Assembly: GCA_000733915.1 (NCBI GenBank)
Contig: JPOM01000001.1
Coordinates: forward strand, 2,482,001-2,546,000
Reading direction: 5' to 3'
From: Caulobacteraceae bacterium PMMR1
GTDB taxonomy: Bacteria; Pseudomonadota; Alphaproteobacteria; Caulobacterales; Caulobacteraceae
Length of the DNA stretch: 64,000 bases
How positions within the stretch are numbered: the first letter of the stretch is position 1; each line of letters starts with the position of its first letter. The notes beneath the pieces are model-generated. The model was not told the DNA's origin. It saw nothing but the letters and a program-made list of their open reading frames with translations, and searched no databases. The position numbers and the translations under genes were made by a program. Of this stretch, positions 43,620 to 53,680 are shown in pieces.

Positions 43620-44654
43620 TCAGTAGATCAGCTCGTCTTCGGAGCCCGAGCTCGCCAGCATGATCTCGCCCTTCGCGGCGAGGTCCTTGGCGACCTGCAC
43701 CATCGCCATCTGCGCCTGGTCCACATCCTTCAGGCGCACGGGGCCCATGCTCTCCATGTCCTCGCGCATGATCTTGGCGGCGCGTTCGCTCATGTTGGAG
43801 AAGAACATCTCGCGCAGGCTGTCGGACGCGCCCTTCAGCGCCAGCGCCAGCTGGCCCTTCTCCACCGTGCGCAGCAGGGTCTGCACCCCGCCGGGATCGA
43901 GCTTGTTCAGGTCCTCGAAGACGAACATCAGGGCGCGGATGCGCTCGGCGGACTCGCGGTTGCGCTCTTCCAGGGCGGCGATGAAGCGGCTTTCGGTCTG
44001 GCGGTCGAAGTTGTTGAAGATTTCCGCCATCATCTCGTGGCTGTCGCGCTTGGAGGTGCGCGCAAGGTTGGACATGAACTCGGTGCGCAGCGTCTGCTCG
44101 ATCTTGTCCAGGATTTCGCGCTGCACCGGCTCCATGCGCAGCATGCGCTGGACGCATTCCAGGGCGAAGTCCTCCGGCAGGGCGGCTAGGACGCGGGCGG
44201 CGTGCTCGCCCTTCACCTTGGACAGCACCACGGCGACGGTCTGGGGGTATTCGTTCTTCAGATAGTTCGCGAGCACGGCCTCGTTCACGTTGCCGAGCTT
44301 GTCCCACATGGTCCGCCCCGCCGGCCCGCGGAGCTCCTCCATCAGGGTCTCGACCTTGTCTCCGGGCAGGAAGGACGAGAGCAGGCGTTGGGTCTGCTCG
44401 AAGGAGCCCATGATCGAGCCCGTGCCGCTCATGCCGGAGACGAACTCCAGCAGAAGCGCCTCCACCACCGTGGCGGAGACCGTGCCAAGGCTCGACATGG
44501 CCGCGGAGATCTCCTTGATCTCCTCCTCGTCGAGCTGGGACCAGATCTGCGTATGCTCTTCGCCCAGCGCCAGCAGCACGACGGCGGCCTTCTCGGGCCC
44601 GCTCAGCCGCTTGGCGTCCTCGATGGAGGGGCGTTTGCGCGCGAGGGTGGCCAT
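43620..44654 (-). CDS. fliG: Flagellar motor switch protein FliG
   Basis: A 344-residue protein with three domains: N-terminal '[18 protein letters not shown]' (binds FliF), middle '[20 protein letters not shown]' and the EHPQ-like region, and C-terminal '[30 protein letters not shown]' (shown in part) with the charged helix contacting MotA. It transmits torque in the rotor. Its start overlaps the fliF stop by one base. Confidence 0.96.
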
Positions 44655-46318
44655 CAGCGCTCATGCAGCCAGCTGCGGAGGATGGAGACGCTCTCCTCCG
44701 GGTGCTTTTCGACGAACTCGGCGACCTGCTTGACGGAGGACGCCTTCACCTGCCCCTCGATGCGCGCGATGTCGATGCGCTGCTCGATCAGGTTGGACGG
44801 GTTGGACGCCAGCGCCAGCTGCTGGGCCGCCTCGGGGCTGTAGCCCTGGGCGGTGAGGGCCGCCACGCTCGCCCCCTGGCCGGCCGCCGCCAAGGCCGGG
44901 CCTGCGAGCAGCCCGCCCCCCGGCCCGGCCATGCCGGCCGTCGCGCGGAAGAGGGGGCGCACGACGAAGAGGATGAGAAGCGCCGCGACGACCAGCAGCA
45001 CGGCCAGCTCCACACCGCGCATGATGTCGTTTTTGTCGAAGTTCAGCGCCGAGGCGGCGCTCACCCCCTCCGGCGTCAGGTCACCATGGTCGAAGCGGAC
45101 GTTGACGACCTGCACCTGGTCGCCGCGCTTGTCGTCCGCGCCCACGGCGGAGCGGACCAGCTGCTCGATGCGCTGCATCTCCTGGGCGGAGCGAGGGGTG
45201 TAGGGGCCCGGCTTGCCGCCCTTGCCCGGGGCGGTGATCCCGTCCACCGCGACAGCGACCGACAGGCGCTTGATGCGGCCCGGCTCCTGGATCTCGGTGC
45301 GCGTGGTGCGGCTGATCTCGTAGTTGGTGGTCTCCTCATTCTGGCCGCTGGTGGAGGCGGACTGGTCCGAGGCGGTCCCGCTCGCCTGGGTGGAGGGCAC
45401 GTTCTGGGAGGCGGAAACCTGGCCGGCGGTGGCGGGCTTCAGCTCCTTGGCGTTCTGGGTGGAGGTCTGGGTGGAGCGGACCACCTGGCCTTCGGGGTCG
45501 AACTTCTCCTCCTGCAGGGTCACGCGGGAGAGGTCGAGGTCCGCGGTCACCTGCACCCGCGCCTTGCCCGGCCCGACCACGCCCTCCACGATGTCCTTGA
45601 CCGTGCGGCGCAGGCGCTCCTCGACCTCGTTGCGCTGCCCGGCCCCGCCCGCCGAGGGCGAGGCGTCGCCCTCCCCGGCTAGGAGCTCGCCCTGGCCGTC
45701 CATGACCGCCACGCGCTCGGCCTTCATGTCGGGCACCGCGCCTGAGACCAGGTTGCGGATCGCGCGCACCTGTTCGGCGCTGAGGCCCCGCGCGCCGGTG
45801 GTCACGAACACCGAAGCGGAGGGCGCCTCGCTGTCCTGCTGGAAGAGCTCACGCCTGGGCATAGCCAGGTGCACGCGCACGAACTGCACGCCCTGGATGG
45901 CGCGGATGGTGCGGGCGAGCTCGCCTTCCAGCGCCCGCTGCCGGTTCAGCTGCTGGACAAAGTCGGTCTGGCCGAGCGCCGGCGCGCTGTCGAAGATCTC
46001 GTAGCCGACGGAGCCCGAGGTCGGCAGGCCCTTGCCCGACAGCATCAGGCGCGCCGAGGCCACCTGGTTGCGGTCCACGAAGATGGTGGAGCCGTCGCCC
46101 TTCAGCTCGTACTTGATCCCCGCCCCGTCGAGAGCGCCGGTGATCTGGCCGGCCTCCTTCAGGTCGAGGTTGGCGTAGAGCAGGGCCTTGGGTTCGCCGC
46201 CCACGCGCAGCATCATGGCGATCAGGATCGCCGCGACGCCCGCGGACGCGCCCAGGATCGCGACCACCCGGCCGATCCCAAACGCCCGAACCTGCTGCAG
46301 CAGAGACTCCACGCCCAC
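44654..46318 (-). CDS. fliF: Flagellar MS-ring protein FliF
   Basis: A 554-residue protein with an N-terminal membrane helix ('[20 protein letters not shown]'), ring-building motifs ('[20 protein letters not shown]', '[14 protein letters not shown]'), a long Gln/Ser/Thr-rich linker around residues 290-340, and a second membrane helix near 430-455. FliF forms the MS-ring on which the basal body is built, and its cytoplasmic tail binds FliG. It is the first gene of the operon. The promoter region upstream abuts pseudogenes; I see no clear full CtrA site. Confidence 0.95.
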
Positions 46319-46348
46319 CCTCGTCGCGCCCCGCCCGGATGGGGGCCG

Positions 46349-47255
46349 CTAGGCAGGAATTACCGGGCGCTTGGTAAACGAGGCGTTAGGGAAGCGGGGC
46401 GCGCGGAACGCGGGTCGCTCCGCCGCGGCGAGGGGCGCGGGGTTGGCGCGCCGCGCCCGCGCCTCCCCGAAGTAGCGCTCCAGCGCCTCGGCGCGATGGG
46501 CCGCCGTGTGGGCCTCCAGCACGCGCGTGCGCGCGGCCTCGCCCTGTCGGCGGGCGCGGTCGGGGTCCGGGTCGCGCAGCCGCGCCAGCACGCCCTCGGG
46601 GCGGTCGGCCAGGACGATCTCACGCTCGGGCGCGAACAGCTGGTCCAGCCCTCCCACCGGTCCGACACGATAGGGCAGGCGCAGACGGCCGCCTCGAACA
46701 GGCTTACGCTCGGACTCCAGCCTGCCGCGATCATGTCGGCGCGGGTCACGTTCAGGGTGTAGCGGCTCGCCGAATAGAAGGCCTGGTGCTCCGCCGGGGG
46801 TACGTGGTGCAGACGCTCGACATTGGCGGGCCAGGCGATGTCGTCCGGATACTGCGGACCGGCGACGCAGAACCTGAGCTCGGGCGCGCGCCGGGCGACC
46901 TCGACCAGCAGGCGGTCCAGCATCGGCTGGCGATCGGGGCTGTAGGTGCCGAGGTAGCTCAGGTCCCAGCGGGTCGCCTCGGGCTGGGGCCGATAGGCGT
47001 GCGGGTCCACGCTGCAATAGAGCGGCCGCGCCGCGGGGGAGCCGTAGCGCCGCTCGATGAAGTCCAGCGTCGGCCCGCCCGTGAACGAGAGGTAGAGGAC
47101 AGCAGGGTGAACCGTGCGCCGCCTCGCCGCAGCGCCCCCAGGCGCGCGACCAGCTCAGGCGCGTTCCATTCGTGCACGATCACCGCGTCCGCGCCCGCGG
47201 TCAGGGCCGCAAGGTCCTCCTCGGGGCCGAAGGGCGTGGAGCTCAGCTCCGGATA
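46349..47255 (-). pseudogene. CgeB-like glycosyltransferase remnant
   Basis: Readable in several frames on the minus strand: 'STPFGPEEDLAALTAGADAV' and 'IVHEWNAPELVARLGALRR' (about 47245-47110), then after a deletion 'SFTGGPTLDFIERRYGSP', 'LYCSVDPHAYRPQ', 'LSYLGTYSPDRQPMLDRLL' and 'AGWSPSVSLFEAAVCACPIVSDRWEG', then another frame change near 46640-46650 to 'LDQLFAPEREIVLADRPEGV' and the stop at 46349. The pattern fits CgeB/Glyco_trans_1_2 proteins. A block of roughly 80-100 residues is missing at about 47100. Non-functional as it stands. Confidence 0.7.
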
Positions 47256-47645
47256 GGGCCAGGGTCGCGATATCCTTGCCCTCGTCCCAGAGGCGCCCGG
47301 CGGTGAACACGACCGGGGCGGGGGCGCTGGCGCTCTTGCTCCGTGAACGGCGAGACGCGGCCGTTCAGGACGGCGAGCGGCGGGCGCGGCAGGTCGTGAG
47401 CCTCGCGGGTGGTCGCGGCGAACGCCTGGCTCGGGGCGACCAGGGCGTCGCAGGCGAGGTAACCGGCGCGGGTCGTCTCCGCCCGCCAGGCGAAGTCCTC
47501 CGGCCACGGCGTATCGCCCCTCACCGCTCGCCACCAGTCGCCAGGCAGGAGTGACAGACGCCGACCGTCGGCGCGGGAAAGCGCGCATGGGCCGCCACCG
47601 CCGGGCCGTTCAGCTGGATCACGTGTCGCCCGGCGTGCTCGCCGT
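47256..47645 (-). pseudogene. Glycosyltransferase (GT4-type) remnant
   Basis: On the minus strand: 'FPAPTVGVCHSCLAT', 'GDTPWPEDFAWRAETTRAGYL', 'ALVAPSQAFAATTREAH', 'PPLAVLNGR' and 'VVFTAGRLWDEGKDIATLA', which together are the acceptor-side and hinge motifs of family-4 glycosyltransferases. The pieces lie in different frames, and the donor-binding half is gone: sequence jumps at about 47255 into a CgeB-like gene. At its 5' end it is fused to an oxidoreductase fragment. Confidence 0.65.
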
Positions 47646-47858
47646 CCAGTCCGCCATGCTCGCCGTAGAGCTCGGCCGCGATCACCGCGTCCTGCCCCGC
47701 GTGCAGCCGCCATGAGCAGGCCAGGCGCACCACGGCGCCGCCTGCCAGCCTCAGGAATGCGACCGCATAGTCTTCGACCCGACGCCCAGGAAGGCCACGC
47801 GGGGCCGGGCGGTCGCGCACTGCGGCGCCGGGGCGGCCAGGGTCGCGGCGGCGCTCAC
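47646..47858 (-). pseudogene. Gfo/Idh/MocA oxidoreductase remnant
   Basis: From a GTG at 47858 the minus strand reads 'MSAAATLAAPAPQ' and 'RPRVAFLGVG', the nucleotide-binding start of Gfo/Idh/MocA enzymes. After the third strand residue the sequence jumps to 'VEDYAVAFLRLAGGAVVRLAC' and 'DAVIAAELYG', which belong to the C-terminal sheet, so about 200 residues are deleted. The start codon overlaps the stop (47855-47857) of a further upstream remnant whose last residues are RPDGFLKALVTL (to about 47895). Confidence 0.65.
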
Positions 47859-47966
47859 AGGGTCACCAGCGCCTTCAGGAAGCCGTCGGGGCGGTTCCGC
47901 TTCGGGGAGGCCGGCGCGCGGCGGTGCGCGTGGCGGAAACGGCGGAAGCGGCCTAGATAGGCGCGC

Positions 47967-49139
47967 ATGGCCCTGGACCTCGCGCCCGACCTGACCGTCC
48001 TGGACGCCGCACGCGCCGCGACCGCTCTGCCGCAGGGCGCGCGCGTGGTCGCGGCCATGTCCGGCGGCGTCGATTCCACCGTCACGGCGGCCCTGCTCAG
48101 CCGCGCCGGCTACGAGGTCGTGGGCGTGACGCTGCAGCTCTACGACCACGGGGCGGCGGTGAAGAAGGCGGGCGCCTGCTGCGCGGGCCAGGACATCCGC
48201 GACGCCCGGCTGGCCGCCGAGCGCATCGGCATCCCGCACTATGTGCTGGACTACGAAAGCCGGTTCCGCGAGAGCGTGATCGACGACTTCGCCGACGCCT
48301 ATCTGCGGGGCGAGACGCCGATCCCCTGCGTCCGCTGCAACCAGACGGTCAAGTTCCGCGACCTGCTGGACGTGGCGCGCGACCTCGGGGCGGAGGCGCT
48401 GGCGACCGGGCACTACGTCCGCCGCCTGGACGGGCCGAACGGGCCGGAGCTGCATCGGGCGCGCGATCCCGCGCGGGACCAGAGCTATTTCCTGTTCGCC
48501 ACCACCCGCGAGCAGCTGGCCTATCTGCGCTTTCCCCTCGGGGACCTGCCCAAGCCCGCCGTGCGCGAGGCGGCCGCTCAGCTCGGCCTGTCGGTGGCGA
48601 CCAAGCCGGACAGCCAGGACATCTGCTTCGTGCCGGAGGGCAACTACGCCACCCTGATCGACAAGCTGCGGCCGAACGCGGCGGGGCGGGGGGAGATCGT
48701 GCACCTCGACGGCCGGGTGCTGGGCGAGCACGCGGGCGTGACGCGCTTCACCGTCGGCCAGCGGCGGGGGCTGAACATCGCCGTCGGCGAGCCCCTGTTC
48801 GTGGTTGCCCTCGACCCTGAGCGCCGGCGCGTGGTGGTCGGCCCCCGCGAGGCGCTGCTCACCGCCGAGCTGACCTTGAAGGAGACCAACTGGCTGGGAG
48901 ACGCGCCGGCGATTAAGGATGCGGCCAGCGCGGGCCTGCCCGTGCTGGCGCGGGTGCGCTCCACCCGGGAGCCCGCCCCTGCCCGCCTGGCGCTGCGCGA
49001 CGAGGCGGTGGCGGTGGTCTTCGACGCCCCGGAAGACAGCGTCTCGCCGGGACAGGCCTGCGTGCTCTATGCCCCCGACCGGCCCACGCGCGTGCTGGGC
49101 GGCGGCTTCATCGCGGGCGCGACCCGGGCGGTGGCCTAG
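47967..49139 (+). CDS. mnmA: tRNA 2-thiouridine(34) synthase MnmA
   Basis: A 390-residue PP-loop thiouridylase: '[18 protein letters not shown]' (ATP loop), '[17 protein letters not shown]' with a catalytic Cys, '[10 protein letters not shown]', '[15 protein letters not shown]' with the second catalytic Cys, and C-terminal beta domains. MnmA thiolates wobble uridine of Lys, Glu and Gln tRNAs using sulfur relayed from IscS. The 3' end overlaps the convergent DUF3617 gene by 4 bases. Confidence 0.96.
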
Positions 49140-52874: not shown

Positions 52875-53195
52875 TTGCCCGTTGCGGCGCGCTTAGCCGC
52901 CCTGGCCGCCGGCTGCAACCGTCCAGGCGCGATCGTCCGCGAGGGCGAGGGCCTGGACGCCGAAGCGCTGCTCTTGGACCGCGACATCGGGTTCGGCGCG
53001 GTTGAACAGGTTTCCTGCGAAGCGCCGTTGACCAGACCGTGGCTTGGTGTTCCCCTTGCGGTTGAAGCTGGCGGGGCGATCAAGGTGAACGGCGAGGTCG
53101 TCAGACTGACCCCCGGACTGCAGGTCACGGCCGAAGTCGTGACCGGCCGCCGCCGTGTGATCGATGAGCTGTGGTCTCCCGTCGCGAAAGCGTAG
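52875..53195 (+). pseudogene. HlyD-type secretion adaptor remnant
   Basis: The frame from about 52890 to the stop at 53195 ends with 'VNGEVVRLTPGLQVTAEV' and 'TGRRRVIDELWSPVAKA', the C-terminal signature of type I secretion membrane fusion proteins, preceded by 'DAEALLLDRDIGF', the barrel-hybrid part. The usual 350 N-terminal residues (helices, lipoyl domain) are missing and there is an internal gap after 'EQVSCEAPLTR'. No start codon is convincing. Only the 3' remnant of an hlyD gene is left. Confidence 0.65.
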
Positions 53196-53215
53196 GCCGA
53201 GGCGGGGAGGCAGCG

Positions 53216-53680
53216 GTGAAGCTGGTCGTTGGTGCAGCTCTCGCTCTTTGCTGCTCAGCAGCGCGCGCTGAGCCTTGGCCGAAATCGATTGTTGTTCGGC
53301 ATGCCACATGGCTTCCCGGTCAAGAGTTAGCACCAAAAACATGCCCCGTTCGCACCCCTGGCCAGTCTCCCGACGAGTATGAGTTTTCATCCTTTTTGCA
53401 AAGGTTACGGCGAGCAGATGGCGTCGTTGTTGAACCTATTCAGGTGGCATGCGTCTTGCACTACTTCTCCCAAAACCAGTTGGAGGTTTTTTGGACAAAA
53501 AAGTCCGACGCCGTCGCTCTCTACGCATGGACGGTGAGGAGGTTCGACCGAGGCAGTCATGTATGTGACGACCCAGCAGTCTATGAGTATCTTGAGCGGG
53601 CCTATGCCTTAGGCGGCAGCCGGAAGACTGAGGCCATCAATCGCATACCAGAGGCCTACATTCTTAAGAAGAGGTCTTAA
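53216..53680 (+). CDS. Secreted orphan protein in low-GC DNA
   Basis: A 154-residue protein with a signal peptide (MKLVVGAALALCCSAARAEP) starting at GTG 53216, with GGGGAGG 5 bases upstream. The mature part contains 'SIVVRHATWLPGQELAPKTC', 'VEPIQVACVLHYFSQNQLEVF' and 'RRFDRGSHVCDDPAVYEYL', with cysteines that could form disulfides. I do not recognise the family. Base composition from about 53290 to 53760 is visibly lower in GC than the rest of the window, suggesting horizontal origin. It follows the HlyD remnant by 20 bases and is closed by its own terminator. Confidence 0.7.
   Translation: MKLVVGAALALCCSAARAEPWPKSIVVRHATWLPGQELAPKTCPVRTPGQSPDEYEFSSFLQRLRRADGVVVEPIQVACVLHYFSQNQLEVFWTKKSDAVALYAWTVRRFDRGSHVCDDPAVYEYLERAYALGGSRKTEAINRIPEAYILKKRS

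Follow-up and report, generated by a model that had tools for sequence, protein, structure and literature searches.

The window analysed here is a 64,000-nucleotide stretch of the genome of Caulobacteraceae bacterium PMMR1 (one contig, G000:C1, of 2.67 Mb, 99.91% complete), in which a spacer of 1648 bases (46319-47966) separates fliF (44654-46318, minus strand) from mnmA (47967-49139, plus strand). This spacer is confirmed as the compressed relic of a sugar gene cluster lying on the minus strand, which we refer to as relic 1, and the sequence-only reading, which had described a compressed graveyard of a glycosylation gene cluster, was right in this central point. The parts of the relic were defined by aligning its minus strand to profiles of intact homologues with a spliced method that tolerates frameshifts; the score was 1248, while three shuffles reached 259-292 and the opposite strand 247. 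Read along the minus strand, the parts are the tail of a zinc-binding (MDR) dehydrogenase, two pieces of a Gfo/Idh/MocA oxidoreductase (Gfo), the interior of a GT4 glycosyltransferase, and pieces of two different CgeB-like glycosyltransferases, CgeB1 and CgeB3 (Table 1). The same pieces were recovered by tblastn, with frame changes within GT4 (near 47537 and near 47353) and CgeB3 (near 46652). Pfam searches of single open frames gave matches for the Gfo piece (PF22725, E 6.8e-7) and the CgeB3 piece (PF13524, E 8.5e-20), a weak match for GT4 (E 0.078), and none for CgeB1. The C-terminus of the MDR tail matches that of intact homologues (e.g., at locus L180), and the spliced alignment of both Gfo pieces together extends over 47849-47650. 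At its other end, the relic stops before a conserved fliF upstream block, recognized by alignment of this region from 12 genomes; position 46349, from which the earlier interval had been drawn, sits at the edge of that block.

Table 1. Parts of the relic between fliF and mnmA (positions in the window) and the two further relics of the same pathway (positions on the genome's contig, G000:C1).
Feature	Position	Strand	Basis
Zinc-binding (MDR) dehydrogenase, C-terminal tail, ...RPDGFLKALVTL, ending in TGA	47858..47908	-	spliced alignment
GTGA, overlap of MDR stop and Gfo start	47855..47858	-	sequence
Gfo/Idh/MocA, N-terminal piece, aa 12-32 aligned	47785..47857	-	spliced alignment
Gfo/Idh/MocA, aa 193-237, preceded by loss of ~160 codons	47650..47784	-	spliced alignment, PF22725, DNA match to L179
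GT4 glycosyltransferase interior, aa 90-212	47260..47643	-	spliced alignment, tblastn frames, DNA match
CgeB-like glycosyltransferase 1, aa 65-116	47100..47255	-	spliced alignment, tblastn, DNA match
CgeB-like glycosyltransferase 3, aa 142-358	46445..47097	-	spliced alignment, PF13524, DNA match
Conserved block upstream of fliF, at the relic's intact border	46349..46379	-	alignment of 12 fliF upstream regions, short DNA matches
Relic 2: ino1, histidine phosphatase, glycosidase-like and PRT fragments in order	G000:C1 190663-192041 (L177 9664-11042)	+	
Relic 3: broken UDP-glucuronate decarboxylase (UXS) lacking aa 173-290	G000:C1 91240-91767 (L199 9241-9768)	-	DNA search with L023

Alignments of relic 1 to the DNA of intact relatives and protein alignments break at the same sites. 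Against the intact locus L021, for example, blastn places relic bases 346-693, 710-868 and 872-1489 on separate stretches, between which L021 carries ~665 bp (at query 693/710) and ~2283 bp (at 868/872). Four internal deletions account for the structure: one within Gfo (aa 33-192), one removing the end of Gfo and the start of GT4, one removing the end of GT4 and the start of CgeB1, and one removing the end of CgeB1, the entire CgeB2, and the start of CgeB3. The fragments are colinear with intact clusters and on one strand, as in a deletion-eroded pseudogene cluster. The junctions noted from the letters alone (47800, 47645, 47255 and 47105) differ by no more than about 20 bp from those mapped by blastn and spliced protein alignment, and original order and strand were also correctly recognized. 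The supposition that each gene had its middle cut out holds for Gfo only, as the other deletions cross gene borders; likewise, the Gfo, GT4 and CgeB-like pieces and an additional tail were rightly seen, but the count of at least three genes plus one tail falls short, since five genes partly survive (two of them different CgeB-like genes) and a sixth is gone. The GTGA overlap was located exactly, and the same one-base offset between start and stop occurs in 20 of 23 adjacent intact MDR/Gfo pairs, identifying it as ancestral coupling.

To characterize the intact source of these fragments, we scanned the contigs of genomes with the CgeB3 fragment (252 candidates, 200 confirmed) and surveyed gene order in the best 80 of the 200 confirmed loci together with 11 further loci, many of the 91 being limited by contig ends or 10-kb flanks. 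Typically, one side of the intact cluster comprises genes for a glycosidase-like protein, a TIGR04290-type methyltransferase, a histidine phosphatase, and inositol-3-phosphate synthase (ino1), and the other side the series SDR1-SDR2-GT4-CgeB1-CgeB2-CgeB3, often with UDP-glucuronate decarboxylase and in some loci with MDR-Gfo nearby. Annotated examples come from Azospirillum, Roseomonas, Paracoccus and Xanthomonas, and the cluster is also present in Sphingomonas. The contiguous one-strand order MDR-Gfo-GT4-CgeB1-CgeB2-CgeB3 occurs, among the 91 loci, only on a Xanthomonas sacchari plasmid (L036), from which the query proteins for five genes of the relic 1 order were taken. Within the family, the Gfo fragment matches 20 of 390 genomes (PMMR1 included). 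A conserved protein of ~600 aa with no Pfam match, which we call PRT (L022 15018-16868), lies beside the cluster in some relatives. A sequence-based structure search with intact CgeB3 returned nothing but short matches to designed TIM barrels, which we took as chance. Our literature searches found no paper on the cluster, and no title or abstract among the results described it; as far as those searches went, this common alphaproteobacterial inositol/xylose glycoside cluster is undescribed.

The other arm of the cluster survives in the PMMR1 genome as relic 2, in which parts of ino1 (aa 1-149), histidine phosphatase (aa 36-71), the glycosidase-like gene (GH; aa 56-174) and PRT (aa 98-171 and 269-341) follow one another colinearly with relatives (score 1224, compared with 229-238 for two shuffles). 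The gaps between them, measured in L021, correspond to ~819, 1348, 882 and 333 bp, and the ino1 piece carries an in-frame TAG and a frameshift. Relic 3, a UXS gene without its middle, scored 392, while three shuffles reached 124-146 and the other strand 139; it is flanked on one side by a presumed peptidyl-tRNA hydrolase-like gene and on the other by a presumed UDP-glucose dehydrogenase-like gene that is open, and this UXS, beside UDP-glucose dehydrogenase, may have stood outside the original cluster. The combination that marks the inositol/CgeB glycoside cluster (ino1, GT4 and CgeB-like genes together) is found in this genome as relics at two loci. No intact copy is present elsewhere: the sole inositol-3-phosphate synthase match is the broken ino1 of relic 2, and a DNA search of the genome with the 10.6-kb intact cluster L023 gave long matches at relics 1-3 only, plus three of ~45-50 bp, with no long match to SDR1, SDR2 or CgeB2. 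A search for TIGR04290 gave weak matches only, far under the cut-off. Of seven PF13524 matches in the genome, the two best are the relic, and the third, above the cut-off, lies in a separate open frame of 453 aa. The neighboring DNA is gene-dense (coding fractions of 0.90, 0.87 and 0.87 in three stretches).

Taken over relics 1-3, the damage amounts to nine internal deletions of ~0.3-2.3 kb each, at least five frameshifts, evident from changes of frame in tblastn, and two in-frame TAGs. Frames are broken in GT4, CgeB3, ino1 (which also contains a TAG) and GH, as in pseudogenes, and about three-quarters of each arm is lost by summed homologue lengths. Point substitutions, in contrast, are few. 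In nine fragments of relics 1 and 2 (1956 bp, leaving aside the MDR tail, the Gfo N-terminus, the ends of the GT4 piece, the histidine phosphatase and the later PRT pieces), a single invariant column out of 161 is violated, where the leave-one-out mean of intact homologues, summed over the fragments, is ~1.1; simulated neutral substitution gave one violation or fewer in 3.7% of runs at 1.3% substitution and in 13% at 1.0%. Relic 3 violates 3 of 51 invariant columns (baseline ~0.2), and the pooled 4 of 212 columns for relics 1-3 scale to ~1% substitution. Codon-position G+C remains gene-like. A complete lack of decay is disfavored by the GH fragments, which are low in mean identity (out of 66 intact homologues, 3 and 4 rank lower). 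With nine internal deletions and several frameshifts amid ~1% substitution, deletion has outrun point mutation in these relics.

Based on these observations, we consider it very likely (probability about 0.9) that what survives in the interval is the defunct remainder of the glycosyltransferase arm of a conserved inositol/xylose glycoside cluster, part of an unused pathway lost piecemeal by deletion in at least three places. We infer that disuse of the pathway came first and that the deletions were neutral or mildly favored chromosomal deletions. The pathway as a whole would have fallen out of use in this lineage, the genes at three or more places would then have been cut away by successive deletions of the sizes given above, and fragments in their original order would have been left between intact neighbors.

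The scarcity of substitutions (a single violated column out of 161 invariant ones across relics 1 and 2) is odd for old pseudogenes, and might instead reflect an artefact of assembly or polishing in which an intact cluster was falsely compressed in this single-contig genome. However, three separate loci of one pathway are affected while the surrounding predicted genes are long and open, the deleted pieces are unique coding DNA and not repeats, the missing parts have no long match elsewhere in the genome, and the genome, on its single contig, is 99.91% complete. Local collapse is improbable because the pathway left two more relics elsewhere in the genome. A more substantial alternative is that removal was itself selected or enzymatically favored, with unusually fast deletion through, for example, end-joining repair or selection against the expression of junk. 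The number of deletions (each of at least ~0.3 kb) and frameshifts accumulated at ~1% substitution speaks for this, as does the contrast with Salmonella, where, in the available text of Kuo and Ochman (2010; PMC2916853), 346 of 378 pseudogenes carry a single inactivating mutation and few are shortened by more than 20%. Plain deletional bias and relaxed selection may nevertheless suffice, and relic 3 does have substitutions; we regard favored removal as possible but unlikely. On such a reading, a dispersed pathway would have been erased at three loci nearly by deletions alone, before point substitutions had accumulated, which would betray an active or selected deletion process in this lineage in place of slow neutral decay; this, too, is unlikely.

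Two further readings concern the role of the locus itself. Fragments might still encode short functional proteins, given open frames of 216 aa (46360-47010) and 222 aa and the conservation of fragment residues; but the frame change near 46652 falls inside the sugar-binding domain, the 216-aa frame overruns the conserved fliF upstream block, and such a split is seen in no intact relative compared, making this scarcely credible. The position beside fliF had also raised the question of whether the cluster once glycosylated flagellin, and is the one point in favor of a flagellum-linked glycosylation island. A search had been proposed for an intact operon beside fliF or mnmA; intact clusters do exist, but a tblastn search of 98 cluster-related loci (1.83 Mb) found no fliF, fliG, flhA, mnmA, flgE, flgK or flgL, so that the linkage to structural flagellar genes expected of such an island was found in 0 of 98. 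The sole flagellar-type match was an flbD-like sigma-54 regulator at the X. sacchari locus. We consider the flagellar reading highly improbable and set a role in flagellin glycosylation aside on this gene context. Among 60 genomes, 14 carry fliF and mnmA on the same contig at a distance of 7.2-9.7 kb, and hook genes (flgE, flgD, flgK, flgL) adjoin fliF in 9 of the 13 relatives' stretches examined; at L041, L042 and L056, fliF, hook genes and mnmA form one block. In PMMR1, the hook genes are open and lie to the right of the window (~2547-2554 kb; L178 2006-9214), not between fliF and mnmA, and the position of the cluster next to fliF is therefore a local rearrangement. We note in passing that the window also contains an open frame coding for a DDE transposase domain (PF01609; 11524-12246, minus strand), and that ~200 bases at 53023-53220 have an 86% identical copy at G000:C1 1976176-1976375, while the comparison with relatives reported no other match there.

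Phylogenies of four fragments disagree (support 0.42-0.82): CgeB3 falls with Methylobacteriaceae-like sequences and those of relative g17, ino1 with Roseomonas, Gfo near Paracoccus, and GH with relatives g17 and g4. Given this disagreement, vertical descent from the cluster of the family is no more than a possibility. The fragment branch is longer than the median tip in all four trees (0.235/0.074, 0.326/0.127, 0.266/0.171 and 0.071/0.024), a second result at odds with a complete lack of decay. Both the disagreement and the long branches may be a matter of sampling, the trees being drawn from other genera, and the branches could hide some decay.

The gene content suggests that the product of the lost pathway was a methylated oligosaccharide or glycolipid that contained inositol and a pentose; the annotated gene tables of intact examples show no polymerase or flippase within the cluster. 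Upstream of SDR1 (within 300 bp), a strict EcfG-like motif, GGAAC-N16/17-CGTT, is present in 15 of 86 loci, compared with 5 of 86 on the other strand and a shuffle mean of 0.2 (maximum 2 in 100), and a looser form within ~730 bp on either strand in 37 of 86 loci, compared with 0 of 85 coding stretches. The region upstream of relic 2 has no match to the motif. These occurrences hint at stress control of the intact cluster, which we treat as a lead only; the available text of an EcfG regulon study (PMC6599016) gave no link, and of its glycosyltransferase operon motifs, #3506 and #3508 match 0 of 80 loci at up to 5 mismatches, and #3507 and #3509 match only at 5 mismatches.

The loss of a pathway by deletion is of an ordinary kind; what distinguishes this case is an unusually clear, deletion-rich and substitution-poor pattern over three loci. 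The relics capture a pathway partway through its removal, in which the ancestral gene order and even a translational overlap can still be read, and they point to a common alphaproteobacterial cluster. Their high ratio of deletion to substitution offers a handle on whether dead pathways are lost through neutral drift or favored deletion. Compared with the intact inositol/CgeB cluster, relics in PMMR1 agree in gene content, fragment order, strand and the MDR/Gfo stop-start overlap, and differ in that each arm has lost about three-quarters of its length and the arms are split between at least two places, whereas the intact cluster is usually one block. Erosion of bacterial pseudogenes by deletional bias was reportedly described by Mira, Ochman and Moran in 2001. 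The present case resembles such erosion as it appears in the available text of PMC2916853, with unneeded genes lost through deletion and frameshift, and departs from the Salmonella pseudogenes covered there, which mostly carry one lesion, in combining the loss of a whole pathway at three loci with nine internal deletions and few substitutions.
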